The translations under genes were made by a program, and so were the position numbers. Positions 1 to 27,050 of a stretch of 64,000 nt of DNA are shown here, one piece after another (position 1 is the first letter of the stretch; every line of letters starts with the position of its first letter). Source of the stretch: an uncultured Pseudomonadota bacterium (GTDB lineage: Bacteria; Myxococcota_A; UBA796; GCA-2862545); the NCBI GenBank assembly GCA_913061235.1, contig CAJXTB010000015.1, forward strand, positions 62,001-126,000, given 5' to 3'. The notes beneath the pieces were generated by a model. It was not told the origin of the DNA, did not search any database, and saw nothing but the letters and a program-made list of their open reading frames with translations.

Positions 1-369
1 GGCCATGTCGAGGTAGCAGGCAGAGCCCGAAGTGTGCCCCGGCGTGTGCCGCACGTGCAGCTCAACCGCCCCCACAGTGAGCCGGTCGCCATGCTCAAGC
101 AGACGGTCAGCCCCTTCCACCAGTCCAGTGGACGGGTAGGCAACCTTGCAGCCGGTCGCATCACGCAGTGTTGCAGCCGCCGTCACATGGTCGGCGTGCA
201 CGTGGGTCTCGACAACCCACGCCAAGGTCAGGCCCATCTCACCCAAGATCTGTAGGTCACGGTCTGCCTGCTCGAGGACAGGGTCAATCAGCACAGCCCG
301 ACGGGTGGTCGGGTCTGCGAGCAAGTAGGTGTAGGTACTGGACGTGGCATCAAACAACTGGCGAAACAT
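1..369 (-). CDS. Persulfide dioxygenase-type MBL hydrolase, 3' end cut off by window start
   Basis: The first 123 residues of a metallo-beta-lactamase-fold protein of the ETHE1/persulfide dioxygenase type run off the left edge of the window. The Fe-binding HxHxDH motif is present as HVHADH (residues 56-61), followed by the HTPGHT loop (H108, H112). Family members oxidise glutathione persulfide to sulfite and glutathione in the cytoplasm. The ATG at 369 is preceded by a strong AGGAGG ribosome site and, about 20 bases further upstream, by a -24/-12 promoter, which fixes the start. It is the first of two such genes in this island; the other is at 5540-6406. Substrate is inferred from the family and from the sulfite dehydrogenase gene next to it. 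Confidence 0.85.
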   Translation of the reverse strand, partial: MFRQLFDATSSTYTYLLADPTTRRAVLIDPVLEQADRDLQILGEMGLTLAWVVETHVHADHVTAAATLRDATGCKVAYPSTGLVEGADRLLEHGDRLTVGAVELHVRHTPGHTSGSACYLDMA

Positions 370-389
370 GGCGCCTCCTGACCAGACTA

Positions 390-408
390 GAGCAAGGTCC
401 GTGCCACC
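390..408 (-). promoter_or_regulatory. Sigma-54 (-24/-12) promoter of the MBL gene
   Basis: Read on the minus strand the site is TGGCACG, GACC, TTGCT, an essentially perfect sigma-54 consensus. The -24 GG and the -12 GC are separated by exactly ten bases. The expected transcription start lies just before the AGGAGG of the gene starting at 369. Half-sites of an inverted repeat lie about 50-90 bases upstream, the usual place for an enhancer-binding protein. Confidence 0.85.
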
Positions 409-454
409 TCGATTCAGCGCCTTCCACCGCCTAAGCGCCAGATTCGTCTCAAAA

Positions 455-493
455 TCGGTCAGACTTCGGTCAGGACTGACCGAGCATGACCGA
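455..493. promoter_or_regulatory. Putative enhancer (UAS): four TCGGTCA/TGACCGA half-sites
   Basis: Two direct TCGGTCA heptamers (455-461 and 466-472) are followed by two TGACCGA heptamers (477-483 and 487-493). The inner pair forms a perfect inverted repeat with a 4-base spacer. The same heptamers recur at 6500-6520 between two other sigma-54 promoters, and a related palindrome overlaps the start of the sigma-54 activator gene at 10038-10057. I infer these are that activator's binding sites. Confidence 0.7.
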
Positions 494-525
494 GAGCGGA
501 ATCCCCTGTCACCAGGGTCGCGCTG

Positions 526-2091
526 CTAGCGAGTCGCTTCCACAACGTACGCCGCTACATCTGCGACTTGTTCGGGAGACAACGAGTCAAACGCGGGCAT
601 GACTCCGACGCCCTTACTGACCGCTGCCTGAACTTGGTCCACACTCGGGGCGAGAGCATTGAGGTTGGGCCCCACAGCCCCTTGCGTTCCCGCGTCCGCG
701 AGCGTGTGACAGACCCCACACGATGGAGAGGACGTGTCCGTAAAGACGGTCTTTCCTCGCTCAGCCTGAGCCGATAGCGAAAGTTCCGCCTGTGGTTCAG
801 CCGTGGGTACAGCGTCGACTGCTGTGGGAGCACTAGGCGTGACCGCGGCCAGCTCGTTCACTGCCTGAATGGTGAGCGCATGGTCTCTCCAGCCGGTGTG
901 TCGGTAGCCGCGCTCATTTTCGTCGCGCGCTTCGGGTTGCACATCACCGAGCATATCGGTCGCTCGGGTCACGACCGTGGTGGCACCCGTGGGCAGGTCC
1001 ACCTCGCACAGGAACGTACGCCACGCATTGGGCCCCAGGTCCGGCCCGGTCAGCTCTGCCGCCAGCCAGGTCACCCCGCAATCCACCGAGTACTCTACGC
1101 TTCGAATGCCGCGTTCACCAGACAGTGCCACCCCGTGAAGGCGACGTCGCCCCGCAAGAATGGCCAGGTCATCGGCCCCCGCGCCATGGAGCCAAGACTT
1201 CACCGGCATGCGCCACAGGCTGGGTTGGTCCGGGCTACCGCTCTCACCAATTGGACGGAACCGGTAGCCAGACTGCTGAATCTTTGCCGTCGTCTGCTCG
1301 GTCGTAGCGGCAAGATGCTCGATGTACTTGATCTGATTGCAGCCGTAGTACCCAGGCACCACAAGGCGCAGCGGTCCCCCGTGCGTCAGCGGCAGCGGCT
1401 CCCCGTTCATCTCCCACACCAAGAAACAGTCTGCCAGTCCCTTCTCAAGCGGAATCGAGCGCTCCACCACTACAGCATCACGGTCCACACCTTCCGGTAG
1501 GGGCTCACCACCGGTGCTGGTCACAAACGCAGCGCCTTCGACGGGTCCACCAAAATGGGTCAGGACGTCTGACACACGCACACCTGTCCACATGGCACAG
1601 CCCGCAGCGCCAGTCGCCCACGACGAGCCCGACGGCCCATGCTCGAAGAAGGCGCGGCCATTGCCCGAGCACTGAATGACGGTAGTCAGGGTCTCTGCAC
1701 CCAGCTGTTGAAGCTCAGCCAGGCGGATCTGCCCCGGTCGGACAACACCGGACACCCGGAGTGTCCAGGCCAAGCGATTGTCGAGAATCGAGTCGCTCGG
1801 ACGCGGCAGATTGTTGCGAACAAAGAAGCGGGACAGCGGTGTGATGACGCCCACGCCCATCTCCGAGCGGCGCGTCTCTAGGGCCAGTGGGCGCTTATTG
1901 TGAACATGAAAGTGCCGTCGCTGAAGACTGTCTGGAAGCGGATCTGGACCCGATGCTGTGAGCTGTGGCGCGGGCGCTGCGTCATCATCCGTGCTGGACT
2001 CAGAGGGGGCTGTGCCCGAGCAAGCGGCCAAGGTGACGACACCGGCGGTGCGCAACATGCCGTGCAAGAAGGTCCGTCGTGTGCTGCTCAT
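526..2091 (-). CDS. Sulfite dehydrogenase: molybdopterin domain fused to C-terminal cytochrome c, Tat lipoprotein
   Basis: A 521-residue exported protein. The N-terminus has a twin-arginine motif (TRRTFL) followed by a lipobox ending in Cys24, so it is probably anchored outside the cytoplasm. Residues about 50-420 are a sulfite oxidase-type Mo-cofactor and dimerisation module, with the Mo-ligand Cys141 in the context IQCSGNGR. A class I cytochrome c follows at the C-terminus, with the haem motif CGVCH at 458-462 and a candidate axial Met near 498. In SorAB enzymes these are separate subunits; here they are one chain. The reaction is sulfite to sulfate with electrons passed to the haem. I start at 2091, where ATG overlaps the upstream stop as TAATG; a start at 2208 would add 39 residues before the Tat signal. 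Confidence 0.88.
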   Translation of the reverse strand: MSSTRRTFLHGMLRTAGVVTLAACSGTAPSESSTDDDAAPAPQLTASGPDPLPDSLQRRHFHVHNKRPLALETRRSEMGVGVITPLSRFFVRNNLPRPSDSILDNRLAWTLRVSGVVRPGQIRLAELQQLGAETLTTVIQCSGNGRAFFEHGPSGSSWATGAAGCAMWTGVRVSDVLTHFGGPVEGAAFVTSTGGEPLPEGVDRDAVVVERSIPLEKGLADCFLVWEMNGEPLPLTHGGPLRLVVPGYYGCNQIKYIEHLAATTEQTTAKIQQSGYRFRPIGESGSPDQPSLWRMPVKSWLHGAGADDLAILAGRRRLHGVALSGERGIRSVEYSVDCGVTWLAAELTGPDLGPNAWRTFLCEVDLPTGATTVVTRATDMLGDVQPEARDENERGYRHTGWRDHALTIQAVNELAAVTPSAPTAVDAVPTAEPQAELSLSAQAERGKTVFTDTSSPSCGVCHTLADAGTQGAVGPNLNALAPSVDQVQAAVSKGVGVMPAFDSLSPEQVADVAAYVVEATR

Positions 2092-3029
2092 TACAGTTCG
2101 CTCGGTTGTTCGGGGGAATGAAGACGGCGCCGTAAGACGTTGCTTGCGGGGCGATGGCGGGGGGTAAAGCTGGGTTCTGTCACAGCACCCGTGCCAAACC
2201 AGTTCCACAGAAAGTGCGAGGCTGGCGGGTCTGCCTGAAGCGAGCGCAGTGCGCTGTCGATGAGGGATGCCTGGAGTCGCCCATCATAGGCCGCGCCGGT
2301 TGTCTCGTCCCAAGGGCGTTCACGGGCACTGGTCAGCGCAGGGTACCCGTACTCGGTGATGACGAGAGGTCGGTCTTGGCCCTGCGCAAAGGTCTGAAGG
2401 CGCGACAGCTCGTCGGGCCAGGTGTGGTGTCCCTCGATTGGGAAGTAGGCAGTGACCCCCACTTCATCGACAAGCGACCAAAACGGCACCTGGTCGAAGC
2501 GGTCCCAGTTTGCAGAGTACAGCACCGAGCCCGAGAAGACGCCGCGAGCCGTCTGGATGACATCCGACCAAGTCGGGTCGTCTTCCAAGCTGTTCAGCTC
2601 CGAGCCAACCACCAGACGGGTCGCGCCACCGCGCTCTGCGTCCACCGCTACGTCGCGAATGAGTCCCTGGTAGTTGGACCAGAAGATGTCGCGGTCCAGC
2701 GGAGCCAGAACACCGCGCCACTCGCCATCCGGCCGACTGTGTACGGTGATGATGGGCATGACAGACACAGCAAGGCCCGCGCTCTTCGACGCCCGCAGGA
2801 CCGCGGCGAGTGCCCCCCTTGGAACATCGCTCTTCAGCGCATGGCTATCGACATGCGGCACCGACCAAGGAACGGCAATGAGCACCTCGGTGGCACCTGT
2901 CGCACCAATTTCCTCGACCAGCGGCGCGTAGTCGTAGTCGACACGGTCCGCGAACAGCCCCAGGGCAATACCGCCGCCTGAGTTGGGCAGCGTGGCCAAT
3001 GCCTGGGCTACGACGAGCCAAAGAATCAT
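2091..3029 (-). CDS. Secreted glycoside hydrolase-like TIM-barrel protein
   Basis: A 312-residue protein with a short N-terminal signal peptide (MILWLVVAQALA). The body reads as a GH113-like (beta-mannanase-type) TIM barrel: a strand ending in VVGSELNSLE supplies a candidate acid/base Glu, and VITEYGYPA late in the chain supplies a candidate nucleophile Glu. The assignment comes from pattern similarity and no substrate can be named. The ATG at 3029 overlaps the stop of the desaturase-rhodanese gene (ATGA) and its own stop overlaps the sulfite dehydrogenase start (TAATG), so the three genes are translationally coupled. A glycosidase is an odd partner for sulfur oxidation genes. Confidence 0.65.
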   Translation of the reverse strand: MILWLVVAQALATLPNSGGGIALGLFADRVDYDYAPLVEEIGATGATEVLIAVPWSVPHVDSHALKSDVPRGALAAVLRASKSAGLAVSVMPIITVHSRPDGEWRGVLAPLDRDIFWSNYQGLIRDVAVDAERGGATRLVVGSELNSLEDDPTWSDVIQTARGVFSGSVLYSANWDRFDQVPFWSLVDEVGVTAYFPIEGHHTWPDELSRLQTFAQGQDRPLVITEYGYPALTSARERPWDETTGAAYDGRLQASLIDSALRSLQADPPASHFLWNWFGTGAVTEPSFTPRHRPASNVLRRRLHSPEQPSEL

Positions 3030-4873
3030 GGAAGACCGGTCTGCAGCGGCAGATCGAGACGACTGTACTCCGCCCAAGAGCCATCATAGTTCCACAGCTG
3101 TTGCTCAGACACACCGAGCTGAAGCGCTGCGTAGTAAATCGCTGACGACCGCGTTCCACTCTGGCAATACGTCACAATCGGGTCGTTCAGGTCGACGTCT
3201 GCAGCTGCCAAGACCTCGCGAAGGTCGTCGGGGCTTCGCAGTCGTGGCGCGTCGCCGTCCAGGTACAGCACATCCGTCCACGCCACGTGCTTGGCACCTG
3301 GGATGCGTCCTGCTCGAGCAGCTTTCGAGTTGAGTTCCACACCCGAATACTCGTCGTCACTGCGGGTATCGACAAACTGAAGGTCGGAGTACTGCTCCTG
3401 CAGTCGGGCGACGTCCTCCCACATCAGGTTGTCCGCGGAACCGCCAGGCAGTGTGATGTCCCCTCGTTCACGGGTCACACCCGACCCCATTGCAAGCCGC
3501 TCACCGAGCTGCTTGTACGCACCAAGTCCCCCATCGAGCACCCGCGATGACACGCCACCCACCTGGGTCAGCGTCCACCACAAGCGGTAGGGCTCCGGGC
3601 CGCCGTCGCCCATCAGGACCAAGGTGTCACCGTCGGACACACCGCGCTCGCGCAACATCTCCTGAAGAGCCGCACGGTCGAAGGAGACGCCGGGGACATC
3701 GCCACCGGAGTAGTCGCTGCGCTCAACGAGCTGTGCGGACGGAACATGGCCCTCCACAAACCGCTCCGAAGCGCGAACATCCAAGATCACGAGTGAGGGA
3801 GCCCGCAACGCTTCCGCGAGTTCCTTCGCGGTCAGGGCAAACTCGGGTCGGGCCCATCCCGCATCCGATGCTGTCCCGCCAAACCGCTGCATGGCCGCTG
3901 TTCCGTCGGCCGGGGTCGCTGCATGACGCACGTCCGACGCACCAGGCTCCACGGAAGGCTGGGAGCTGGCGGCAGGCTCACCGAACATGGGCGTAGGAAC
4001 GGTGGGTTGCTGACTCAACAGGTACAGCGACGCAATCACAGCGACACCCATCACAGACCCAAAGACGTTGTTTCCCTGGAGTCGCGGGAAGACCAGAGGC
4101 AGTGGCCAGACCAGCTGGCCGAAGAAGTCGTGGGGCAGCTTTTCTACACCGGGAAAACCAATGTGTTCCGGTGGCGTATCGGGCAGGTGAGCCGTTCCGA
4201 AAATCCAGTCCCAAGCACTGAAGATGATGCCGAAGTTCTGGCCCGTCCGCGGACCGGCAGCGTCGTGGTGGTACAGGTGCATTCGAGGACTGTTGAGCAC
4301 GTAGCGCAGAGGACCGTAGTCCCAGCTCAGGTTCGCGTGGTTGAGGTGACCAATGAGCGTGCCGAAGACCGCGTGAAAGAACAACGCCTCGGGAGCAAAG
4401 CCAAACCACGCCAGCGGAATGAAGGTGATGGACTTGTAGATGACCGGTTCCATCCAGGAGAACCGGAAGGAGACAATCCAGTCCATCTCCCCGTCAACGA
4501 CCGAGTGGTGCACCTGATGAATCTTCCAGAGGAACGACACCCGGTGAAGCAAGTTGTGCACCGACCACTGAACGAAGTCCACCACGACTAGGGCCACGAT
4601 GATCTGAAGGACCATCGGCCAGCTGGCCGACGCGTTGCGGTACAGCAGCGCACTCCAGCCATTCTCGGCGAGGATGCCGTCTACCCAAGGCAGCACCCGG
4701 TACACGGTAATCCCGTACAGGAACAGGCCGAGGAAGTGACCGTTGAACACCAGATGAAGCGCATCTGACCACACCCACTTGCGCAACACCTTTTGCTTGC
4801 GGGCGGCGAACAATCGTTCCAGACCAAAGACGAAGACCGACAGAGCCAGCAGCCAAAGCATGTAGTTCATCAT
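3026..4873 (-). CDS. Membrane fatty acid hydroxylase/sterol desaturase fused to tandem rhodanese domains
   Basis: A 615-residue fusion. Residues 1-300 are a polytopic membrane di-iron domain of the fatty acid hydroxylase/sterol desaturase superfamily with HNLLH (106-110), HQVHH (119-123), a HxxH near 176-179 and HLYHH (199-203). After a Pro/Ser/Ala-rich linker come two rhodanese domains arranged as in SseA-type thiosulfate or mercaptopyruvate sulfurtransferases: the first (about 345-455) has no cysteine at the loop position, while the second carries the catalytic loop CQSGTRSS with Cys570. It is the first gene of an operon with the GH-like protein and the sulfite dehydrogenase, behind its own sigma-54 promoter. 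The fusion could put sulfane sulfur transfer at the membrane; the oxygenase substrate is unknown. Confidence 0.85.
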   Translation of the reverse strand: MMNYMLWLLALSVFVFGLERLFAARKQKVLRKWVWSDALHLVFNGHFLGLFLYGITVYRVLPWVDGILAENGWSALLYRNASASWPMVLQIIVALVVVDFVQWSVHNLLHRVSFLWKIHQVHHSVVDGEMDWIVSFRFSWMEPVIYKSITFIPLAWFGFAPEALFFHAVFGTLIGHLNHANLSWDYGPLRYVLNSPRMHLYHHDAAGPRTGQNFGIIFSAWDWIFGTAHLPDTPPEHIGFPGVEKLPHDFFGQLVWPLPLVFPRLQGNNVFGSVMGVAVIASLYLLSQQPTVPTPMFGEPAASSQPSVEPGASDVRHAATPADGTAAMQRFGGTASDAGWARPEFALTAKELAEALRAPSLVILDVRASERFVEGHVPSAQLVERSDYSGGDVPGVSFDRAALQEMLRERGVSDGDTLVLMGDGGPEPYRLWWTLTQVGGVSSRVLDGGLGAYKQLGERLAMGSGVTRERGDITLPGGSADNLMWEDVARLQEQYSDLQFVDTRSDDEYSGVELNSKAARAGRIPGAKHVAWTDVLYLDGDAPRLRSPDDLREVLAAADVDLNDPIVTYCQSGTRSSAIYYAALQLGVSEQQLWNYDGSWAEYSRLDLPLQTGLP

Positions 4874-4893
4874 GGGGCCTCCTCCTCATCTAT

Positions 4894-4913
4894 GAGCAGG
4901 AATCGTGCCAATC
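4894..4913 (-). promoter_or_regulatory. Sigma-54 promoter of the desaturase-rhodanese operon
   Basis: On the minus strand: TTGGCACG, ATTC, CTGCT, with GG and GC ten bases apart. The leader would be about 12 bases and contains a GAGGAGGAGG ribosome site before the ATG at 4873, the same short-leader layout as the other sigma-54 promoters in this window. A perfect 10-bp inverted repeat lies about 65-95 bases upstream at 4975-5005. Confidence 0.82.
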
Positions 4914-4974
4914 ACCGAACCACCGATATCCCTAGGGAAAGGAGTAGAACGGCGTCTCCAGGTAGGAAGTTGAC

Positions 4975-5005
4975 CACATTGGGTTGTTGGAGATGACCCA
5001 ATGTG
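4975..5005. promoter_or_regulatory. 10-bp inverted repeat, possible operator or enhancer
   Basis: CACATTGGGT (4975-4984) and ACCCAATGTG (4996-5005) are perfect inverse copies around an 11-base spacer. There is no T-run on either side, so a terminator is unlikely. A TGACCGG (5004-5010), one base off the TGACCGA heptamer found upstream of the other sigma-54 promoters, abuts the right arm. The position fits an upstream activating sequence for the promoter at 4894-4913, but the main sequence differs from the TCGGTCA sites, so a second regulator is possible. Confidence 0.5.
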
Positions 5006-5029
5006 ACCGGATTTGAATCAACCGAGCGA

Positions 5030-5045
5030 CTGCCGCTATCGGCAG
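5030..5045 (-). terminator. Short hairpin after the Usp gene, possible weak terminator
   Basis: CTGCCG-CTAT-CGGCAG forms a 6-bp GC-rich stem with a 4-base loop, about ten bases beyond the stop of the universal stress protein gene (5055). No T-tract follows on the minus strand, so intrinsic termination would be weak. Confidence 0.3.
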
Positions 5046-5054
5046 TACAAGCGG

Positions 5055-5540
5055 CTAGCCTTCGGACTCGGCGCGCAAGGCCGCGAGGGTAGCGGACGGA
5101 TTGTGTCCTTCGCCCTGAGCCGGGACCACCACCACTGGCAGGTGAACGCGCCTGACGACACTCTCCTCAACGCTCCCGAACACCCAGCGCGACACACCAG
5201 TGCGAGCATGGGTTCCCATGACCAACATGCGTGGGTTCAGCTCTGCTACACGCTGCACAATCACCGGTTCTGGCTTGCCAAAACGCACCATGAACTGAGT
5301 GGCTACACCCGCCTTTTCCCACGGCGCCGCAAGCAGCTCAAGCGCGTGCTGGGCCTCTCGCAACACCACGTCATGGGTTGTTGAACGACGCCCAGGAAGG
5401 ACATCATCGGGCGACAGGCCGGCTGGAACCGCCACCGCCGTCATCAGCTCCAGTCCACAGTTTAGGTCGAGTGCGAGCTGTCCGGCACAGGCAACAACTT
5501 CGCCTGCACATCCTTCAATATCTAGGGCTACGAGTAGCAT
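5055..5540 (-). CDS. Universal stress protein (UspA family)
   Basis: A 161-residue single-domain Usp. The C-terminal half carries the expected MGTHARTG...FGSV...VV..VHLPVVVVP pattern, which forms the nucleotide-binding loop in ATP-binding Usp proteins. Its ATG shares a base with the stop of the persulfide dioxygenase gene (TAATG at 5538-5542), so the two are co-translated and both depend on the sigma-54 promoter at 6437-6455. Usp proteins often accompany redox or respiratory stress genes; its specific role is not visible. Confidence 0.88.
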   Translation of the reverse strand: MLLVALDIEGCAGEVVACAGQLALDLNCGLELMTAVAVPAGLSPDDVLPGRRSTTHDVVLREAQHALELLAAPWEKAGVATQFMVRFGKPEPVIVQRVAELNPRMLVMGTHARTGVSRWVFGSVEESVVRRVHLPVVVVPAQGEGHNPSATLAALRAESEG

Positions 5541-6406
5541 TATTTGGCCTCCGAGAAGATTCCGAGCGGCAGCTTAAAGTACCGCAGACCATTGGGCTCG
5601 GGCTCAGGCAACTTGCCGGCCTTCGCGTTGACCTGAAGAGACTGAAAGATGAGCTTGGGTGGCGACAGTGTCTTGTCACGCGCCGTACGCATGGCCACGT
5701 ATTCATCGCGCGTGGTGTCCTTGCGCATGTGGATGTTGTGAGTCCAACACTCTTCAAGCGTGGTCTCGTACGCAAGCTCACGGCCGCCGGGCTGGTAGTC
5801 ATGCCCAACGAAGACACGCAGCGCTCCGTCCAAGGCGTACAGGCGCTTGATCGAGTTGTACATGTCATCCGAAGACCCACCGGGGAAGTCGCAGCGCCCG
5901 GTACCGGAGTCCGGCATGAACAAGACGTCTCCAACGAACAAGGCATCGCCAATCTTATAGACGTAGCAAGCCGGTGTATGACCTGGACTGTGCATCGGTT
6001 CAATCGTCAAGCTGCCCGCCTGTAGGGCCTTGCCGTCCGACAGTAGGACGTCCCACTGAGTACCGTCCGTCTTGAACGTGTCGTCGAATCCAAACACGCC
6101 CTTGAAGGCGGCCTGAACCGCGCCAATCTCAGCACCAATGCCAATCTTGGCTCCCAGCCGTTCCTTTAGGTACTGAAACGCCGACAGGTGGTCCGCGTGC
6201 GCATGGGTGTCCAGCACGTAGTGAACGTTCAACCCGAGCGCCTCAGCCCGGTCAGCGACGTGCTTGGCCGAGGCGGTGGACACATCAACAGCCAGCGGGT
6301 CGAAGTCGAGCACTGGGTCGATGATCACAGCGTCTTTGCTGTGCGCATCAAACACAAGGTACGTCAGCGTCCAGGTGGCAGAATCGAAAAACATCTCGAC
6401 GGTCAT
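5540..6406 (-). CDS. Persulfide dioxygenase-like MBL-fold protein
   Basis: A 288-residue MBL hydrolase. The metal motif is HAHADH at residues 68-73, followed by SPGHTP, FVGDVLF, the RCDFPGGS segment characteristic of ETHE1/persulfide dioxygenase and BlhA-type proteins, and GHDYQPGGR. Its size and layout are those of a full-length family member. The predicted reaction is O2-dependent oxidation of glutathione persulfide to sulfite, which would feed the sulfite dehydrogenase at 526-2091. The start ATG at 6406 has a GAAGGAG ribosome site and lies about 30 bases from a -24/-12 promoter. It is transcribed divergently from the TsdA-like gene, with a shared operator between them. Confidence 0.88.
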   Translation of the reverse strand: MTVEMFFDSATWTLTYLVFDAHSKDAVIIDPVLDFDPLAVDVSTASAKHVADRAEALGLNVHYVLDTHAHADHLSAFQYLKERLGAKIGIGAEIGAVQAAFKGVFGFDDTFKTDGTQWDVLLSDGKALQAGSLTIEPMHSPGHTPACYVYKIGDALFVGDVLFMPDSGTGRCDFPGGSSDDMYNSIKRLYALDGALRVFVGHDYQPGGRELAYETTLEECWTHNIHMRKDTTRDEYVAMRTARDKTLSPPKLIFQSLQVNAKAGKLPEPEPNGLRYFKLPLGIFSEAK

Positions 6407-6436
6407 GGGTAGCTCCTTCGCTAATGCCCTGTCACA

Positions 6437-6455
6437 AGCAAACTACGTGCCAAGG
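6437..6455 (-). promoter_or_regulatory. Sigma-54 promoter of the persulfide dioxygenase-usp operon
   Basis: Minus strand reads TTGGCACG, TAGT, TTGCT: a full consensus match with GG-N10-GC spacing. The palindrome at 6500-6520 lies about 50 bases upstream. Confidence 0.87.
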
Positions 6456-6499
6456 AGGTGGCGGCATCCGCGGGGACGGTTCGACCGCCATGAATCAAA

Positions 6500-6520
6500 A
6501 TCGGTCAGAGAGTGACCGAT
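6500..6520. promoter_or_regulatory. Shared palindromic operator between divergent sigma-54 promoters
   Basis: ATCGGTCA-GAGAG-TGACCGAT is a perfect inverted repeat with 8-bp arms and a 5-base spacer. It sits about 50 bases from the leftward -24/-12 promoter (6437-6455) and about 60 bases from the rightward one (6577-6596), so one bound activator could serve both. A TGAGTCA half-site (6523-6529), identical to the arm of the palindrome over the activator gene start, follows directly. Confidence 0.75.
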
Positions 6521-6576
6521 AGTGAGTCATTACCATGTCCACCTCCAGCATTCGCCCGTCCACAGTAGGACTTCGC

Positions 6577-6596
6577 CTTGGCACGGATGGTGCAAA
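6577..6596 (+). promoter_or_regulatory. Sigma-54 promoter of the tsdA-like/porin/rhodanese operon
   Basis: TTGGCACG, GATG, GTGCA with GG at 6580-6581 and GC at 6592-6593. It lies inside the upstream extension of the reading frame, so the upstream ATG at 6535 cannot be the start used from this promoter; the ATG at 6619 with its GGAGG site is the real one. Confidence 0.87.
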
Positions 6597-6618
6597 ACCG
6601 AGGCTAGGAGGTCTCGAC

Positions 6619-7458
6619 ATGCGCTGGTGGTGGACAATCGGATGGCTGGTGGGTTGCGCCGGGGTGGAGATGTCGGAGGAACCGACAGCCCCTCCCGAGG
6701 CGCCACAACAGGAACAACTCGCACGTGTCGAGGCGCCCCCTCCGGCTCCGTCGGAAGACAAGGTGATGTCGCCCGCTGCCGAACGGGGGCTCGCACTCGC
6801 AACGGACACCCACCGATTGCTGCCGGACAACGTTGGTAACGACCTGGTCTGCACCAGCTGCCATCTGGAGAATGCCACGCGTCCCAAGGCCGCTCCATGG
6901 GTAGGCGTGACGGACCGCTATCCTCGGTACCGCAAGCGTTCGGGCAAGGTAGACACTCTGCAAGAGCGCATCAACGGTTGTTTTCAGCGCAGCATGAACG
7001 GCACCCCACTCGCTACGGACAGCGAGGAGATGGCGGCGTTGGTCGCGTACGCAGAGTTCGTCTCGGAGGGGGTGGACGGCGTTGACATGCCGGGTGCCGG
7101 AATGCCTCGGATTACGTCGCCCGAGCCCCCTAATGCGGCGCGTGGACAGCATGTGTACGAGACCCAATGCATGGCGTGTCACCAAGCGAATGGCGAAGGC
7201 CTCACCTTGCCAGACGGACAGTTGATGTTCCCTGCACTGTGGGGTGATGGGTCGTTTAATGTGGGCGCTGGCATGGCCCGTCTAGACACAGCGGCCGCGT
7301 TCGTGAAGTGGAACATGCCGCTGAATCAGGGCGGAACACTGACCGACCAAGAAGCGTACGACGTCGCCGCATGGTTCACCGTTCAGCAACGTCCTGACTT
7401 GGAAGGCAAAGAAGGCGACTGGCCGAACGGCGATAAGCCCGCAGATGCGAGGTACTGA
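6619..7458 (+). CDS. TsdA-like dihaem cytochrome c lipoprotein (thiosulfate dehydrogenase family)
   Basis: A 279-residue lipoprotein (lipobox LVGC, Cys13) with two c-type haem motifs, CTSCH at 78-82 and CMACH at 184-188. Between them INGCFQRSMNG (Cys121) matches the thiosulfate dehydrogenase signature, where the cysteine is an axial ligand of the active-site haem. Family enzymes join two thiosulfates into tetrathionate, or run in reverse, outside the cytoplasm. The start at 6619 is chosen because it has a GGAGG, a lipoprotein signal and a sigma-54 promoter just upstream. Its stop overlaps the porin start (TGATG), so the two are coupled. Direction of the reaction cannot be told from sequence. 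Confidence 0.82.
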   Translation: MRWWWTIGWLVGCAGVEMSEEPTAPPEAPQQEQLARVEAPPPAPSEDKVMSPAAERGLALATDTHRLLPDNVGNDLVCTSCHLENATRPKAAPWVGVTDRYPRYRKRSGKVDTLQERINGCFQRSMNGTPLATDSEEMAALVAYAEFVSEGVDGVDMPGAGMPRITSPEPPNAARGQHVYETQCMACHQANGEGLTLPDGQLMFPALWGDGSFNVGAGMARLDTAAAFVKWNMPLNQGGTLTDQEAYDVAAWFTVQQRPDLEGKEGDWPNGDKPADARY

Positions 7459-8651
7459 TGTGGCTCCTTCTGCTCGCTGCATCTCTCGCCGCCGACTGGC
7501 TGACCCTTCAGGGCTCAGAGTTCGGACGCGACGACACCCCCATTCACGCCTTCGGCTTCGTCCAACCACAGCTCGACATCTTTGTCGGCGGTGAGCGGGT
7601 CAACGGTGAGCGTCCAATATTCAACACCATCGGAGGTACGCCCACTTCGGTCCGAGTCCATCGAGCGCGCATTGGCGTCCGTGGGTCGATTCCAAAGACC
7701 GAACAACGCGTCTCCTACTACCTGCTTGCAGAGGCCGGGGAGGTCTCGCTGACCCGAGGCGCTCCCGTCGTCTTGTCCGATGCTTCCCTGACCTTATCGG
7801 CCCCTGGCGCACGTCTGCGACTGGGTCAGTTCAAGCTCCCGGTCATGGAAGAGATTGTGCAGGGTGTGGCCGTGTCACTGGAGTTCATCCACTTCTCCAA
7901 CACCCTGACCGGATTGCTGCTCGAGAACCGGGTGGACGCAACCGGCCAGTACAGCGGCCCCTCGTTTGGCTTTCGCGACGTGGGTGCCCAGGTGTTCGAG
8001 GGCTTTCAAACCGACACATTCGCAGGTTCCTACGCCATCATGTTGTCGAACGGCAATGGCATTCATGCTGGTGACAACGACCCCGCCAAAGACCTATCGG
8101 TCCGAGGAGAGGTGGCGTGGGTCTTCGAAGGGGAGCGCAAGTCGGCTCGACGGCACGAGCTGAAGGTAGGCGGATGGTGGCTCGAGGGGACTCGGTCCTC
8201 GGACGGCGACCGCGCCCGACGCGCCAGACGGGGTGCCTTTGTTCACCTTGAACAGGGCTCGTACTGGGGACTCGTGGAGTTCGCAGATGGCGTGGGCATG
8301 CTCGAGTCGGGCCGTACCACACCATTCGCGACCGGTGAGGTTGTCATTTCACCCACCGGACGCGGCTGGGGGACGGTGGCACAGGCCGGAGGACGACTGG
8401 AGTTCTCTCAAGGGTCGATAGGTCTAAAAGGAAGATACGACCGTTATCATCGACGTACAGATGACAGCGCCGCACTGCGCGTCTTCCAGACCACAACCAT
8501 CGGGGTGGAGTACAACCCGGTCCGCAAGGTCCGCATTCAGGTCAACTACGAATTTCGTGACCTAAACGCCCCCAATGCCCCAATTCCAGCCCAGCAGGTC
8601 GCCGACGCCATGGCAGACCGCATCACCACGCAAGTCACCGCATCCTTCTAA
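7458..8651 (+). CDS. Outer membrane porin, phosphate-selective OprO/OprP-like
   Basis: A 397-residue beta-barrel protein. A short signal peptide (MWLLLLAASLAA) is followed by alternating-residue strands typical of an OprO/P-type porin, such as RLRLGQFKLPVMEE near residue 120 and a C-terminal strand ending in Phe. Translationally coupled to the TsdA-like cytochrome (TGATG). Placed between a thiosulfate enzyme and a rhodanese, it may pass sulfur oxyanions rather than phosphate; that is inference from context. Confidence 0.8.
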   Translation: MWLLLLAASLAADWLTLQGSEFGRDDTPIHAFGFVQPQLDIFVGGERVNGERPIFNTIGGTPTSVRVHRARIGVRGSIPKTEQRVSYYLLAEAGEVSLTRGAPVVLSDASLTLSAPGARLRLGQFKLPVMEEIVQGVAVSLEFIHFSNTLTGLLLENRVDATGQYSGPSFGFRDVGAQVFEGFQTDTFAGSYAIMLSNGNGIHAGDNDPAKDLSVRGEVAWVFEGERKSARRHELKVGGWWLEGTRSSDGDRARRARRGAFVHLEQGSYWGLVEFADGVGMLESGRTTPFATGEVVISPTGRGWGTVAQAGGRLEFSQGSIGLKGRYDRYHRRTDDSAALRVFQTTTIGVEYNPVRKVRIQVNYEFRDLNAPNAPIPAQQVADAMADRITTQVTASF

Positions 8652-8672
8652 GGAACGCGAAAGGAACCTACT

Positions 8673-9038
8673 ATGAAAGGCTTTTTTAGGGCTATTCTAG
8701 ACGCCTGGTCAGGGAACTCCCCCTCCGCTCAACGCATGGACGTACACGACCTACATGCAGCGCTGCAGAGCAATCCCGACTTGGTCGTCGTCGATGTTCG
8801 CACGGCCGTTGAGTACGCGGCGGGACACGTCCCAAACGCCATCAATGTGCCGCTGGCCCGTATCAACAATGCCCCGGAACTCGCCGAGCTAACCGACCAA
8901 ACGGTCCATCTGATCTGCTTGTCTGGCGCCAGATCTGGGCGGGCCCAAGGGTTTCTTGCCAGCAACCCGTTCACCACCATCAACATCACCGGCGGAACGA
9001 GCGCTTGGCGACGCGCTGGCTACCCACTGGTGGAGTAG
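8673..9038 (+). CDS. Single-domain rhodanese sulfurtransferase
   Basis: A 121-residue protein with one rhodanese domain: DVRTAVEYAAGHVPNAINVPL and the catalytic loop CLSGARSGRA with the active-site cysteine. No signal peptide, so it is probably cytoplasmic. It is the third gene of the operon starting at 6619, 21 bases after the porin. Single-domain rhodaneses move sulfane sulfur between thiosulfate, glutathione and persulfides, which fits delivery of glutathione persulfide to the MBL dioxygenases. Confidence 0.9.
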   Translation: MKGFFRAILDAWSGNSPSAQRMDVHDLHAALQSNPDLVVVDVRTAVEYAAGHVPNAINVPLARINNAPELAELTDQTVHLICLSGARSGRAQGFLASNPFTTINITGGTSAWRRAGYPLVE

Positions 9039-9046
9039 CGGGTGGG

Positions 9047-10039
9047 CTAGACCAGCTCGTGCTCGCGTAGCCGACGATACAGAGTGGACCGAGAGATACC
9101 CAGCGCATCCGCCATCTTTCCGCGACTGCCGCCAAAGCGCTGCCACGCGTCAACCAGCTGCCGGCGCTCAAGCGCGTCCAGCTCATTGGTGACCGGCCGG
9201 TCTGGATGGCCGGTAGACAGCATGATGGAGTCGATGGGAGGGGCCTCGCCACGCAGCTCTGGAAGCAGGTCTTCAACGCCTAATACCGGTCCGAGTCCTA
9301 GGACAAAGGCGCCCTGGAGCATGTTGTCCAGCTCGCGAATATTGCCGGGCCACGGATAGCTCTGCATCGCGTCCCAAGCATCGGCGGAAATCCGGTGAAT
9401 CTGACGTCCTCCCTTGGCATTGAGGCGGTCGATGAGTGTCCATGTCAACAGCTCCAGATCCCCCTCACGCTCACGCAGCGGCGGCAGGCGCAAGATCACA
9501 ACGCGAAGGCGGTACATGAGGTCTTCGCGGAACTTTCGCTGCGCCACCAAGTCCCGAAGTCCGGTGTTTGTGGCCGAGATAATGCGAATGTCCACCTGTT
9601 TCTCAACCGACCCACCCAACGGCCTGAAGCGGCGCTCTTGTAGGACGCGAAGCAGACGCCCTTGAAGGTCTGCCGGGATGTCCGCGACCTCATCGAGAAA
9701 TAGTGTGCCTTTGTCGGCCTGAACCAGCAGGCCATCGCGACTCCCCACGGCTCCAGTAAACGCCCCTTTCACATGCCCAAACAGCTCACTCGCCAGCATC
9801 TCCGACGTGAAAGACGCGCAGTTGACCGCACGAAACCGAGCCGAGCGCCGAGCGCCCTCAGCGTGTAGCGCACGAGCGACCAACTCTTTTCCCGAGCCGC
9901 TCTCGCCACGCAGCAACGTGGTCACATCACTGTGCGCAGCGCGACGGATGAGCTCGAACAGCGACAGCATGCGCGGTGAGCAGGTGACCATCCCATTGAA
10001 GACGGTTTGTTTCAGATCGGGTCGCATTCGGTCGTTCAT
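9047..10039 (-). CDS. Sigma-54-dependent activator without sensor domain (AAA+ plus Fis-type HTH)
   Basis: A 330-residue enhancer-binding protein. Walker A GESGSGKE lies at 45-52, the sigma-54 contact loop GAFTGA at 92-97 and Walker B GTLFLDE near 111-117; a Fis-type helix-turn-helix is at the C-terminus (GISRSTLYRRLRE). Only about 20 residues precede the AAA+ domain, so there is no receiver, GAF, PAS or FisR-type sensor domain. That layout resembles PspF, whose activity is set by a partner protein. It lies convergent with the rhodanese gene, and a palindrome covers its start codon (10038-10057), which suggests autorepression. It is the likely activator of the four sigma-54 promoters at 390-6596. 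An alternative start is Met5. Confidence 0.9.
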   Translation of the reverse strand: MNDRMRPDLKQTVFNGMVTCSPRMLSLFELIRRAAHSDVTTLLRGESGSGKELVARALHAEGARRSARFRAVNCASFTSEMLASELFGHVKGAFTGAVGSRDGLLVQADKGTLFLDEVADIPADLQGRLLRVLQERRFRPLGGSVEKQVDIRIISATNTGLRDLVAQRKFREDLMYRLRVVILRLPPLREREGDLELLTWTLIDRLNAKGGRQIHRISADAWDAMQSYPWPGNIRELDNMLQGAFVLGLGPVLGVEDLLPELRGEAPPIDSIMLSTGHPDRPVTNELDALERRQLVDAWQRFGGSRGKMADALGISRSTLYRRLREHELV

Positions 10040-10057
10040 GAGTCAATGATGACTCAT
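10038..10057. promoter_or_regulatory. Perfect palindrome over the sigma-54 activator start codon
   Basis: ATGAGTCA-ATGA-TGACTCAT has 8-bp arms and a 4-base spacer. It shares the outer T and the GTCA core of the half-site with TCGGTCA at 455-493 and 6500-6520, and has nearly the same spacer. It overlaps the activator's ATG (10037-10039), so binding there would block its own expression. Confidence 0.65.
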
Positions 10058-10142: not shown

Positions 10143-10901
10143 ATGTCCGACTCCCTCATTCACGTCGCCGATGACTTCTGGAATATCCGAGGGTCTTTCA
10201 AGATCTTCAAGGTGGTAGACATTGGGACACACGCCTCACTGGTACGTCGTGCGAATGGGCGCTTCGTGCTGTTGGATGCCTACACCTTGTCCGGCGAGAC
10301 CGAGCAGCAGGTACGCGACCTGACCGATGGGGGTGCTGCGGTCGACGCCATCTTGAACCTCCACCCGTTCCACACCATCCACGTTCGGCGCTCCCACGAG
10401 CAATTCCCGCAGGCTCGCCTGTACGGAACCACCCGACACATCGCAAAGGCCCCCGACCTGCCCTGGCAGCCTGAACACACCGATTCCCCTGCCCTTCATG
10501 CGCTGTTCGACGAGTTCACCTTTACCGTTCCTCGTGGCGTCGACTTCATCTCCAGCAACGAGAACGTTCATTTCTCGTCCGTTCTCGCCATTCACAACGC
10601 ATCGCGAACGTTGCACGTGGACGACACCCTGATGCACACCCAGCTGCCCGTCGTGGGCGGGGTGCGCTTCCACCCCACTCTCAACAAGGCGTTGCAGCCC
10701 CGTGCCGGCGCCGCCTCCGAGTTCCGCGAGTGGGCGAAACAGTTCGCTGAGCAGTGCGCTGACGTCGACAACCTGTGTGCAGCCCACACCCGAGCACTGC
10801 TCAAGGCGGACACCCAGAGCAACACTATCTCCGCTCGTATTCTCGACGCCCTCGAACGGGTTGAAGGGGTGCTTCAGGCCCATGAGAAACGCCACGGGTA
10901 G
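10143..10901 (+). CDS. Metallo-beta-lactamase-fold-like protein without the canonical metal motif
   Basis: A 252-residue protein that reads like an MBL-superfamily member of the DUF4336 kind: N-terminal FKIFKVVDIGTHASLVRRANGRFVLLDAY, then LNLHPFHTIHV where HxHxDH would be, and a HVDDTLMH segment later. The spaced histidines could still bind metal, but the standard Asp is missing. No signal peptide. Start chosen at the ATG of MSDSLIHV (10143) because the sequence before it lacks family-like features. Divergent from the sigma-54 activator; function unknown. Confidence 0.6.
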   Translation: MSDSLIHVADDFWNIRGSFKIFKVVDIGTHASLVRRANGRFVLLDAYTLSGETEQQVRDLTDGGAAVDAILNLHPFHTIHVRRSHEQFPQARLYGTTRHIAKAPDLPWQPEHTDSPALHALFDEFTFTVPRGVDFISSNENVHFSSVLAIHNASRTLHVDDTLMHTQLPVVGGVRFHPTLNKALQPRAGAASEFREWAKQFAEQCADVDNLCAAHTRALLKADTQSNTISARILDALERVEGVLQAHEKRHG

Positions 10902-19678: not shown

Positions 19679-19698
19679 ATGGCACGAAAGCTGCTTTA
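19679..19698 (+). promoter_or_regulatory. Sigma-54 promoter of the SH3b protein gene
   Basis: TGGCACG, AAAG, CTGCT with GG at 19681-19682 and GC at 19693-19694, ten bases apart. The predicted start lies just before the GGAGG at 19707-19711, the same short-leader architecture as in the sulfur island. No TCGGTCA element is visible upstream. Confidence 0.7.
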
Positions 19699-19720
19699 GG
19701 GGCAACGGAGGATGGATCTC

Positions 19721-20800
19721 ATGCTGTTGCTACTTTTGGCTGCCTTTTCGAACGCAGAACCCCAGTGGGTGGACGCCGATGTGCTCAATGTGCGGGAGGC
19801 GCCAGGCGGTGACATCGTTGCCCGGCTTGTTTCCAACGACCAGGTAGATGTCACCGAGCGCAACGGAGCGTACGCACACGTTCGCCATCAATCGCACGAC
19901 GGCTGGGTGGATGGATGGGTTGATTCGACGTTTCTCTCCGAAGGTAAGGTCCAAAACTACGACACCCTGAGGTCCGAGACAGCCCCAACTGCCGACCGAG
20001 TCCGCGCCGCGAGCCGAATGCTGATCGAGTACGGCCACTCCCCTGGGGACCGGGCACAGTTCGCCCAGCAGCTACTCGACATGGGAGAAGCCGACGCGGC
20101 AGCGGTAATCGCCGTGCCACCTCCGGTCTACGTTGCGGTGTGCGACGGCAACGACCTCATCGTCGCAGGCACCATTCCCCAAACTGGCCCCTTTGAGTCG
20201 TGGGAAGGCGCTGACGACTTGCGGGCTCACTTGTCCGAAGTCGTGACCCAGCGCTGGTACACCGAGCACTCCATCAACGGTCCGCGCTTCCCTGCCGCAC
20301 GCCTGGACGCACAGGCCATGATTTTCCGCGGGGAGGGGCACGAAGAGGTCATCGTCTTGGGCTCGTGTCATGACCCGGGCGCGCTGTACCTCAGTCGGTA
20401 CGACGTTGGCCTGCAGCCGACTCCACAGCCCCCCGCTGCCCTCCTTGCCCGTGCCTCGGAGTCCATCCACTCACTCGCTTCGGTGACCGAGCTTGCGCTG
20501 CACGAAGTCGCTGGAGTCGTACACATTCAGGCGACCTCAGCGACCGTGTGCGAGGAGGGCTCAGCCGGGTATTCGCAACCCTGCGACGCGGCGTACTTCC
20601 ATCGCTTCGTACTGGAAAATGGGACAGAGCTGGCACCGACAAAGTCGATGCAGATCGAGCGGACAGCGTGGATAGCAGCCGGGGATAGCGCCCTGGGTCC
20701 AATCGTCTTGGGGACCAACGCCTCAACGCTAATGGTGCTGTACCCAACCGCAAGCCCAGTGGTGGAGTACCGGGTGGATGTGAGCTTTGGCGGGTGCTGA
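19721..20800 (+). CDS. Secreted SH3b-domain protein
   Basis: A 359-residue protein with a Leu-rich signal peptide. An SH3b/SH3_3-like domain occupies about residues 15-75 (VLNVREAPGGDIVARLVSNDQVDVTERNGAYAHVRH). The rest has no family I can name and ends in Cys. The ATG at 19721 is preferred over that at 19712 because GGAGG lies about nine bases before it and directly against the other. A sigma-54 promoter drives it alone. SH3b domains usually bind peptidoglycan or peptides, so a cell-envelope stress role is plausible. Confidence 0.8.
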   Translation: MLLLLLAAFSNAEPQWVDADVLNVREAPGGDIVARLVSNDQVDVTERNGAYAHVRHQSHDGWVDGWVDSTFLSEGKVQNYDTLRSETAPTADRVRAASRMLIEYGHSPGDRAQFAQQLLDMGEADAAAVIAVPPPVYVAVCDGNDLIVAGTIPQTGPFESWEGADDLRAHLSEVVTQRWYTEHSINGPRFPAARLDAQAMIFRGEGHEEVIVLGSCHDPGALYLSRYDVGLQPTPQPPAALLARASESIHSLASVTELALHEVAGVVHIQATSATVCEEGSAGYSQPCDAAYFHRFVLENGTELAPTKSMQIERTAWIAAGDSALGPIVLGTNASTLMVLYPTASPVVEYRVDVSFGGC

Positions 20801-25322: not shown

Positions 25323-27050
25323 ATGCGCTACCTGTCTGCCCTGACCCTCATCACCTTGTTCAGCTGTACCAAGCCTGTTCCGCCGGCACAGCCCGAAGCA
25401 CCGGTCACCATCACGATTGTGGCCATGAATGACTTCCATGGTGCGATCCACTCACAGACCCCACGCGGCCAAGACGACATGCGCATGGGCGGACTGCCGT
25501 GGCTAGTGGGTGCAGTCGAAGCCATTCGCGCTGAGAGCCCAGACATGGTGCTGTTGGACGGCGGCGACGTGTTCCAGGGCGACTGGGAAGTCAACGCGAC
25601 CGAAGGCAGAGGCGCTGTCGACGCACTGAACATGCTCGGCCTAGACGCCGCTGCGGTCGGCAACCACGACTTTGACTACGGCCCCCTCGAAGACGGCGAC
25701 CCCGAGAACCTTCGCGGTGCCCTCGAAGCGGGTGCCAAGCGGTCGAACTTCCAGTGGTTGTCCGCCAACATCGAAAACAGTGATGGAAGCGTCTGGGCAC
25801 CAGAAGGCATTGCGCCATGGACCATCATCGAGCGCAAAGGCAAGCGTATTGGTGTGATTGGCCTGTCCACGCAAGACACGCCGCAGACCACACTTCTGCG
25901 CAACGTCGCCGACCTCGCCTTCACGGACATCGTCGAGACCGTGCAAGAGCTGCTTCCGGTCATCCACGCGGAAGGGGTAGACGCCATGGTGCTCGTCGCC
26001 CACCTCACCGGTAGCTGCGAGCCCGAGGGCTACTTTGAAGTGGGTGCCCCGTGTACACCAGACGACGAAATCGGTCGCTTGCTGAACGAGCTGCCCGTCG
26101 GCACGTTCGACGTCATGGTCCTCGGTCACGCTCACACCATCATGGCCCACCGCGTGGGAGACACCTTCCTGATGGAACAGCGCGCCAAGGGCCACGCCCT
26201 GGGACAGCTCGAGCTGGTCTTCGGACCCGACGGCGTAGACGCAGATGCCAGCCACATTCGGGAGCCATGGCCCCTTCTGCACACGCAGGCTGACCCAGGC
26301 TGTGAGGAAGGCGAATACGACATGACGCCTCAGGCAATCGGCCCGCGTACTGTCACGCCTAATGCCGAAGCCGTCGCCCTCGTCGATGCCCTTGAAGAGG
26401 AAGCTGGCAGCATGTGCCAGGCCCTCGGCTGCGCAGACCACTACCTGGGTCGCACCCGAACCGCTGAGAGCGAAGCCGGAAACTTCATGGCGGATGCGAT
26501 GCTCAGCCACTTCCCGCAAGCCGACTTCGCTATCCAGAACAGCGGCGGAGTTCGCGCCAACCTTCCCGAAGGCGTGGTTCGTCGCGGAAGTCTGCAAGCG
26601 ATGATGCCGTTCGACAACCGCGTCTTCCTCGTCGAAATGACTGGCGAGCAGGTCAATGAGCTGTTCCGTCTAGGCAGCAGTGGCGCCCACGGCATCCTGC
26701 AGGTGGCAGGTGCCAACTACCACTTCGACCCCGAGCAAACCGGCGGGAGCGACCTGGACGGAGACGGTGAGACCGCCGACTGGGAGACCAACCGCCTGTG
26801 CTCAGTGAGCGTTGCAGACGCACCAGTGTCCGACGAAGCCACCTACAAAATCGTCACCACCGACTTCCTGTTCGACGGCGGCGACCACCTTGGCCATGTC
26901 TTTGAACACACCACCTTGCTCGAAGAAGGCCCGCTCCTTCGTGAGGTTCTGTACAGCGCGACCAGCAGTCTTGGAGACGAATGTATTGGCGCCGCTGGGC
27001 CGCTGGTCAATCCCGAAGCACCGCGGATTGCGCAAGGTACCTGCGAGTAG
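25323..27050 (+). CDS. 5'-nucleotidase / 2',3'-cyclic phosphodiesterase, UshA-like lipoprotein
   Basis: A 575-residue lipoprotein (lipobox TLFSC). The N-terminal calcineurin-like metallophosphatase domain shows NDFHG, GGDVFQGD, GNHDFDYG and GHAHT, the standard di-metal ligands. The C-terminal half (from about 360) is the 5'-nucleotidase substrate domain, with QNSGGVRANLPEG and FDNRVF. It would free nucleosides and phosphate from nucleotides in the periplasm or at the surface. CGGGAG precedes the ATG. Confidence 0.9.
   Translation: MRYLSALTLITLFSCTKPVPPAQPEAPVTITIVAMNDFHGAIHSQTPRGQDDMRMGGLPWLVGAVEAIRAESPDMVLLDGGDVFQGDWEVNATEGRGAVDALNMLGLDAAAVGNHDFDYGPLEDGDPENLRGALEAGAKRSNFQWLSANIENSDGSVWAPEGIAPWTIIERKGKRIGVIGLSTQDTPQTTLLRNVADLAFTDIVETVQELLPVIHAEGVDAMVLVAHLTGSCEPEGYFEVGAPCTPDDEIGRLLNELPVGTFDVMVLGHAHTIMAHRVGDTFLMEQRAKGHALGQLELVFGPDGVDADASHIREPWPLLHTQADPGCEEGEYDMTPQAIGPRTVTPNAEAVALVDALEEEAGSMCQALGCADHYLGRTRTAESEAGNFMADAMLSHFPQADFAIQNSGGVRANLPEGVVRRGSLQAMMPFDNRVFLVEMTGEQVNELFRLGSSGAHGILQVAGANYHFDPEQTGGSDLDGDGETADWETNRLCSVSVADAPVSDEATYKIVTTDFLFDGGDHLGHVFEHTTLLEEGPLLREVLYSATSSLGDECIGAAGPLVNPEAPRIAQGTCE

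Follow-up and report, generated by a model that had tools for sequence, protein, structure and literature searches.

The closest described counterpart of the locus considered here is the FisR regulon of Cupriavidus and Acinetobacter, in which a sigma-54 activator with an AAA+ domain, a Fis-type helix-turn-helix (HTH) and an N-terminal regulatory domain controls genes for persulfide dioxygenase (PDO) and sulfide:quinone reductase (SQR) from a sigma-54 promoter (PMC7315123). A second is the BigR-regulated yeeE-yedE-pdo2 operon, where a PDO is encoded together with a YeeE/YedE transporter pair (PMC7315123). A survey of sediments found PDO in most metagenome-assembled genomes (MAGs) of Myxococcota and Sor solely in Myxococcota (PMC12345210), and the present locus agrees with this. 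It lies at the left end of a 64,000-nucleotide stretch of DNA (the window; contig CAJXTB010000015.1, positions 62,001 to 126,000, assembly GCA_913061235.1) from an uncultured bacterium placed by GTDB in Myxococcota_A. We consider it likely to be a dedicated sigma-54 regulon for the complete oxidation of sulfane sulfur, and it would as such show that sulfane sulfur can be taken to sulfate in Myxococcota by a self-contained pathway without Sox, with a regulator and operators that can be tested.

The island shares with the FisR regulon the combination of sigma-54 promoters and an AAA+/Fis-type activator over PDO genes, but its activator is sensor-less, its genes form four units, and it adds a fused sulfite dehydrogenase (SorTU), TsdA, a porin and a fusion of a fatty acid hydroxylase (FAH) with rhodanese (Rhd) domains, whereas SQR belongs to the FisR operon. 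The PDO and YeeE/YedE pairing of the BigR operon is also present, but here under sigma-54 control, with the PDO fused to a rhodanese and with SulP added.

Organisation of the island

A preliminary description, made from the letters of the window, had reported ten genes in 10 kb. All ten are present and the genes that it listed are real, but its parts list missed the FAH domain, a glycosidase gene of the GH113 type and the genes past the window edge. The island was found to span approximately 13 kb (C15:58907-72039) of a host genome of 7.18 Mb in 72 contigs, and to continue for approximately 3 kb beyond the left edge of the window, where the rhodanese domain of the first gene is encoded and YeeE1, YeeE2 and SulP come next on the same strand. 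Four units (A to D) were defined by gene direction and overlap, with the activator gene beside them; stop and start codons overlap within unit B. The genes lying in the window are as follows.

1..369, minus strand, 5' part of the PDO-rhodanese fusion gene (PRF/ETHE1-type), unit A; the full gene encodes 345 aa and continues to G000:C15:61332
526..2091, minus strand, SorT-type Mo subunit fused to a SorU-type cytochrome c (P0002), with a twin-arginine-like N-terminus, unit B
2091..3029, minus strand, GH113-type glycosidase with a signal peptide-like N-terminus (Pfam GH113, 88 bits), unit B
3026..4873, minus strand, membrane FAH (di-iron) domain followed by a tandem rhodanese (P0004; Pfam), unit B
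5055..5540, minus strand, universal stress protein (Usp, UspA family; Pfam Usp, 78 bits), its start overlapping the stop of the PDO gene, unit C
5540..6406, minus strand, second PDO-type protein of the metallo-beta-lactamase (MBL) fold (4efz, E 1e-89; 4ysk, E 4e-86), unit C
6619..7458, plus strand, TsdA-type dihaem thiosulfate dehydrogenase / tetrathionate reductase with a lipoprotein-like N-terminus, unit D
7458..8651, plus strand, outer-membrane porin (weak OprO/P match; Porin_O_P 24.6 bits, cut-off 20.9), unit D
8673..9038, plus strand, single-domain rhodanese with its active-site Cys (ICLSGARS; Pfam Rhodanese, 56 bits), unit D
9047..10039, minus strand, sigma-54 activator with AAA+ and Fis-type HTH domains (Pfam Sigma54_activat, 206 bits from residue 18, and HTH_8)

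The gene beyond the activator (P0011, window 10143-10901, plus strand) was considered as a further member and set aside, as it has no Pfam or NCBIfam match and its orthologues lie on contigs other than those of the sulfur loci, with only one relative (L080) having it near the FAH-Rhd gene. It is conserved and divergent from the activator, with orthologues 55-60% identical in 8 other relatives.

Sigma-54 promoters, operators and activator

Sigma-54 sites were identified as matches to TGGCACG-N4-TTGCW with invariant GG and GC and correct spacing. Such sites had been claimed ahead of four units, and four were found, each with 11-12 of 12 positions; they are listed here together with the candidate operators.

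391..406, minus strand, sigma-54 promoter of unit A (PDO-Rhd/YeeE1/YeeE2/SulP), TGGCACGGACCTTGCT, 12/12, 22 bp from the start codon
4895..4910, minus strand, sigma-54 promoter of unit B (FAH-Rhd/GH113/SorTU), 11/12
6437..6452, minus strand, sigma-54 promoter of unit C (PDO/Usp), 12/12
6579..6594, plus strand, sigma-54 promoter of unit D (TsdA/porin/rhodanese), 11/12
455..494, no strand, predicted operator for the activator at unit A, with TCGGTCAG and TGACCGAG half-sites, two of each
4971..5008, no strand, probable operator of unit B, three TGACC copies and an inverted repeat CACATTGGGT/ACCCAATGTG
6490..6530, no strand, predicted operator common to the divergent units C and D, TCGGTCA-gagag-TGACCGA within outer ATGAATCA/TGAGTCAT arms
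10041..10054, no strand, palindrome AGTCAatgaTGACT, directly upstream of the activator start

All four promoters lie within approximately 45 bp of the start codons of their units, for which the chance per start was estimated from shuffled sequence as approximately 2e-4, and the orthologue of unit B in a related genome (G028) has a 12/12 site at the equivalent position. Elsewhere in 81 kb a single equally good site was found, at 19680, with 0.63 expected per shuffled 64 kb window. This fifth site (window 19680-19695, plus strand, 11/12) is 16 bp before the gene of a secreted protein of 362 aa (19712-20800) with an SH3-like N-terminus and no link to the sulfur genes.

The motif GGTCA-N4/5-TGACC occurs at 468 and 6503, within the operators of unit A and of units C and D, the latter being situated between the two divergent promoters. 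The palindrome at 10041 (AGTCA-N4-TGACT) is similar to these and might serve autoregulation of the activator. Upstream of unit B the evidence for an operator is weaker, since the TGACC copies are all forward-oriented and the inverted repeat (4975-5005) is a different one. Across the 7.2 Mb genome the arrangement GGTCA-N4/5-TGACC-N40-70-GGCACG has three occurrences, all in the island, and a reversed control pattern has none; as the pattern was drawn from these very sites, the counts speak for its uniqueness and not as an independent test.

The activator possesses the AAA+ domain with GAFTGA loop and the Fis-type HTH of bacterial enhancer-binding proteins. No N-terminal sensor domain was found, the AAA+ match beginning at residue 18, and lacking the N-terminal regulatory domain it does not class as a FisR. 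In L118, a locus from a different family of the same order, an activator with 67% identity to that of the island over almost its full length likewise starts at the AAA+ domain and is encoded approximately 3.5 kb from PDO-rhodanese, YeeE1, YeeE2, SulP, TsdA, porin and tandem rhodanese genes. Upstream of the PDO gene of that locus are GGTCAgcTGACC, GGGTCA repeats and a sigma-54-like TGGCACAGCCCCTGCA, with GGTCA/TGACC half-sites as in the window. A related activator in L116 is divergent from PDO, TsdA, porin and rhodanese genes, with a 12/12 sigma-54 site. The proposal that the island forms one regulon, which had been drawn from promoters and shared operators, is thus strengthened by similar activators adjoining the same module in L118 and L116, and the suggested comparison of gene order showed module and activator to be kept together in other genera; the four units apparently constitute a jointly controlled set.

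In L095, L098, L083 and L116, TGAAAC/GTTTCA motifs (read by eye) stand upstream of the promoters in place of the half-sites of the island. As judged from these loci, the regulon is conserved in relatives while its operator sequence changes. The activator homologue of L116 (L116:4000-4749) was observed to have an extra N-terminal region, named PAS-like by eye; with no such region in the window and L118 relatives, a gain or loss of a sensor within one activator group is predicted.

Persulfide, sulfite and thiosulfate enzymes

Comparison with solved structures bore out the gene identities first proposed for the island. Regarding the two MBL proteins of persulfide dioxygenase type, the first matches the PRF of Burkholderia phytofirmans (BpPRF) over residues 1-337 (E 1e-95; Pfam Lactamase_B and Rhodanese), sharing both domains with it while differing in genomic setting and regulation. 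The second is of the 4ysk/4efz type and scores 338 bits against the dioxygenase half of the Blh model. Both have an MBL fold nearest to solved PDO-type proteins and a GR(T/C)DF motif, and are predicted to make sulfite from persulfide in an oxygen-dependent manner. Left of the window, YeeE1 and YeeE2 are YeeE/YedE-type transporters, YeeE2 being a DUF6691 protein.

The sulfite dehydrogenase fused to cytochrome c combines a SorT-like and a SorU-like part in one chain of 521 aa (P0002). The closest solved relatives of both components are the SorT and SorU of Sinorhizobium (4pw3, E 6e-108, 365 bits; 4pw9_B, E 2e-16, 63 bits). The chain falls below the NCBIfam cut-offs for SorT (481 against 570 bits) and SorU (97 against 100 bits) and is accordingly termed SorT-like, although SorT is its nearest solved relative. 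The Mo-binding Cys (C141) in a QCSGNGR motif places it in the sulfite oxidase superfamily (SorT/SorA/SUOX), a CGVCH haem motif is present, and C141 and R5-R6 are invariant in 22 sequences.

The TsdA-like dihaem cytochrome matches Allochromatium vinosum TsdA (4wqc, E 7e-55) across both haem domains and has the two CxxCH haems (CTSCH, CMACH), the Cys ligand of haem 1 (Cys149) and the Met of haem 2 that define TsdA, with an Asn before this Met (numbering of the frame starting at 6535). Haem motifs, Cys and Met were present in all homologues compared, and the Asn in the closer ones. The Allochromatium and Campylobacter enzymes share the Cys and Met ligands; the residue before the Met is Lys in the former and Asn in the latter, and the lipoprotein-like N-terminus distinguishes the island protein. 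In TsdA the Cys carries the reaction intermediate (PMC4423706), and Met ligation with an Asn-Met pair has been described for Campylobacter (PMC5146829). The island protein is predicted to act on thiosulfate and tetrathionate. Its start has to be the ATG at 6619, as the longer reading frame from 6535 would take in the promoter at 6579-6594. Homologues of the adjacent porin adjoin TsdA in L095, L098, L115, L116, L118, L121 and L122.

The hydroxylase-rhodanese fusion and its neighbours

The first gene of unit B joins two well-known domains, a lipid hydroxylase and a rhodanese, in a combination that is kept with sulfite oxidation across many genomes; a search of open-licence papers returned nothing on such a fusion or a role for it. 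The hydroxylase half belongs to the fatty acid hydroxylase / sterol desaturase superfamily (PF04116, 92 bits against a cut-off of 31), having ten conserved histidines (H106, H110, H119, H122, H123, H176, H179, H199, H202 and H203) that do not vary in a set of 11 sequences or in one of 28. It shares PF04116 and the histidine motifs with hydroxylases such as OlsE, but scores 89 bits against an OlsE model with a cut-off of 475 and therefore represents its own subfamily, set apart also by the tandem rhodanese and the sulfur-gene context. As a member of this superfamily it may hydroxylate a lipid. The rhodanese half matches thiosulfate sulfurtransferases and has a catalytic Cys in the second domain only (YCQSGTR, C570). 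The AlphaFold2 model is fairly confident (pLDDT 86, pTM 0.72). The hydropathy and charge profile points to a sixth membrane helix, which would place the rhodaneses in the periplasm, with the histidine cluster facing the cytosol. A face-to-face arrangement of rhodanese and hydroxylase was set aside on account of these predicted opposite sides, and direct oxygenation of a rhodanese persulfide is weakened by the same topology.

The adjoining GH113-type protein has glutamates (E160 and E242) aligned with mannanase glutamates that act in this family as catalytic acid/base and nucleophile, and both are invariant in 25 sequences. With its catalytic-site glutamates kept, the protein is probably exported and active as a glycosidase.

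Conservation among relatives

A scan of one genome per species (84,980 species) with two peptide patterns from the hydroxylase yielded 45 loci, nearly all in Myxococcota-type MAGs, with one labelled Planctomycetota and one Klebsiella pneumoniae. In the latter (L101, CAMAWH010000030.1) the hydroxylase is of the Myxococcota subfamily, and the bin is probably mislabelled or contaminated. In a count by eye over 28 fusion loci, GH113 comes after the fusion in 25 and a SorTU fusion (48-65% identity) lies nearby in 15, with a more distant SorT-family Mo protein (30-36%) in 6 further loci, giving a SorT-family total of 21/28. Judging by these neighbourhoods, FAH-Rhd, GH113 and SorTU form a conserved sub-operon of three genes; the partner enzyme varies, and the pairing of the fusion with predicted sulfite oxidation persists. 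A DsrE-like gene adjoins the fusion in L078, L080, L082 and L083.

Standalone members of the hydroxylase subfamily were found in two PDO/TsdA/porin/rhodanese modules (L095, L098) and beside a separate tandem rhodanese (L091). Approximately 12 others have no sulfur gene detected nearby, and the subfamily is thus not exclusively sulfur-linked. A single origin of the fusion was not adopted, as the hydroxylase tree needs several changes between fused and single labels, some of the single entries perhaps stemming from truncated contigs.

PDO was identified in 23 of 27 fusion-bearing genomes compared with 47 of 74 relatives, MAG completeness varying among them; the excess is only modest, and PDO presence was not taken as proof of coupling to the trio. 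In L083 and L095, genes for a COX1-family haem-copper oxidase subunit I and a P-type ATPase are situated next to YeeE1/YeeE2 near the PDO/TsdA module, which suggests a linked terminal oxidase.

Proposed pathway and alternative explanations

A path from persulfide through sulfite to sulfate, with a thiosulfate/tetrathionate branch, had been outlined from family knowledge and has good support from homology and active-site residues. The steps of PDO, SorTU, TsdA, rhodanese and YeeE proteins are assigned as is usual for these families. Promoters, operators, domains, active-site residues and conserved neighbourhoods were read from the sequence, and on these the following scheme is built, in which the signal, the binding of activator to operators, the flow of substrates and the topology are predicted. 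A sulfur signal would cause the sensor-less activator to bind the TCGGTCA/TGACCGA sites and switch on the four units. The porin may let sulfur oxyanions into the periplasm, where TsdA would interconvert thiosulfate and tetrathionate. The YeeE/YedE transporters and rhodaneses would import sulfane sulfur and hand it on, the two PDOs would convert persulfide to sulfite, and the periplasmic SorT-SorU fusion would oxidize sulfite to sulfate with electrons passing to cytochrome c. The rhodaneses of the FAH-Rhd protein, predicted to be periplasmic, would most likely either cleave thiosulfate or load sulfane sulfur, with sulfite passing to SorTU; the substrate of the hydroxylase domain may be a membrane lipid or a sulfur species. 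Several observations weigh against this scheme of a single complete regulon. An activator with no sensor domain leaves the route of the sulfur signal unaccounted for, and upstream of unit B the strict palindrome seen at the other three units is missing. PDO is common in relatives anyway, which makes its link to the fusion a weak one. Only 4 of 27 fusion-bearing genomes have TsdA, and the thiosulfate branch and the trio would thus be separable modules, the trio accompanying PDO more than TsdA.

That the promoters and gene grouping are a coincidence has a next to negligible probability: sites with one mismatch do turn up at a low chance rate (2.6 expected per window against 7 found), but hardly at 11-12 of 12 positions close to the starts of four units, in an arrangement conserved in other genera. 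More consideration is due to the possibility that the island mainly detoxifies sulfide, persulfide or sulfite, as the FisR regulon does in Acinetobacter, and yields no energy. We regard this as doubtful but possible, given that sigma-54 control of PDO is as in FisR (PMC7315123), that a Usp is encoded within the PDO unit and that PDO reactions conserve no energy (PMC12345210); against it, both TsdA and SorTU are linked to cytochrome c, by which their electrons would enter a respiratory chain, and genes for cytochrome oxidase subunits are found with the module in L083 and L095. It is unlikely that TsdA serves anaerobic respiration by reducing tetrathionate, as it does in Campylobacter. Its Asn-Met haem 2 site is that of CjTsdA (PMC5146829), but TsdA works both ways, and its shared control with sulfite dehydrogenase and with PDOs, which consume oxygen, argues for oxidation.

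For unit B, two further functions were weighed. The fusion might be a membrane di-iron oxygenase acting on sulfur from its own or a neighbouring rhodanese to form sulfite, which the co-encoded dehydrogenase would then convert to sulfate; this we hold to be quite improbable. Unit B might instead degrade organic sulfur, with GH113 freeing a sulfonated or thio-sugar head group, the hydroxylase attacking the carbon beside the sulfur, and SorTU clearing the sulfite that leaves. Hydroxylation adjacent to a sulfonate is known to release sulfite, GH113 retains both glutamates with no obvious role in inorganic sulfur metabolism, and the presence of SorTU would be accounted for. There is nevertheless little probability in this, as unit B shares its regulon with the genes for PDO, TsdA and YeeE, the fusion partner of the hydroxylase is a rhodanese, a handler of sulfane sulfur and not of sulfonates, and standalone hydroxylases occur in the modules of L095 and L098 with no GH113.

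Sulfur genes elsewhere in the genome

The preliminary description had seen no SQR, Sox or Dsr gene. This holds for the island; genome-wide, a type III SQR was identified on contig C9 (579 bits, cut-off 525). SoxB was absent from the genome (best match 59 bits, cut-off 550), so that no Sox system is assigned, the search not having extended to Dsr. The weak SoxB match is a 575-aa protein in the window (25323-27050, plus strand), probably of the 5'-nucleotidase type. Annotated plasmid records were tried as a source of a ready-made PDO-SQR context and put aside: PDO-rhodanese was present among them, with no sulfur operon in the two records examined.

A sigma-54-like site (TGGCATGGTTGTTGCT, 11/12) lies just before the SQR gene, without the palindrome of the island. 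The SQR is a possible source of polysulfide for the island. Behind the SQR gene in this region (L149:5287-8466; G000:C9:73287-76466) come three genes whose products were named by eye: one with a TusE/DsrC-like C-terminus, one DsrE-like and one DoxX-like.

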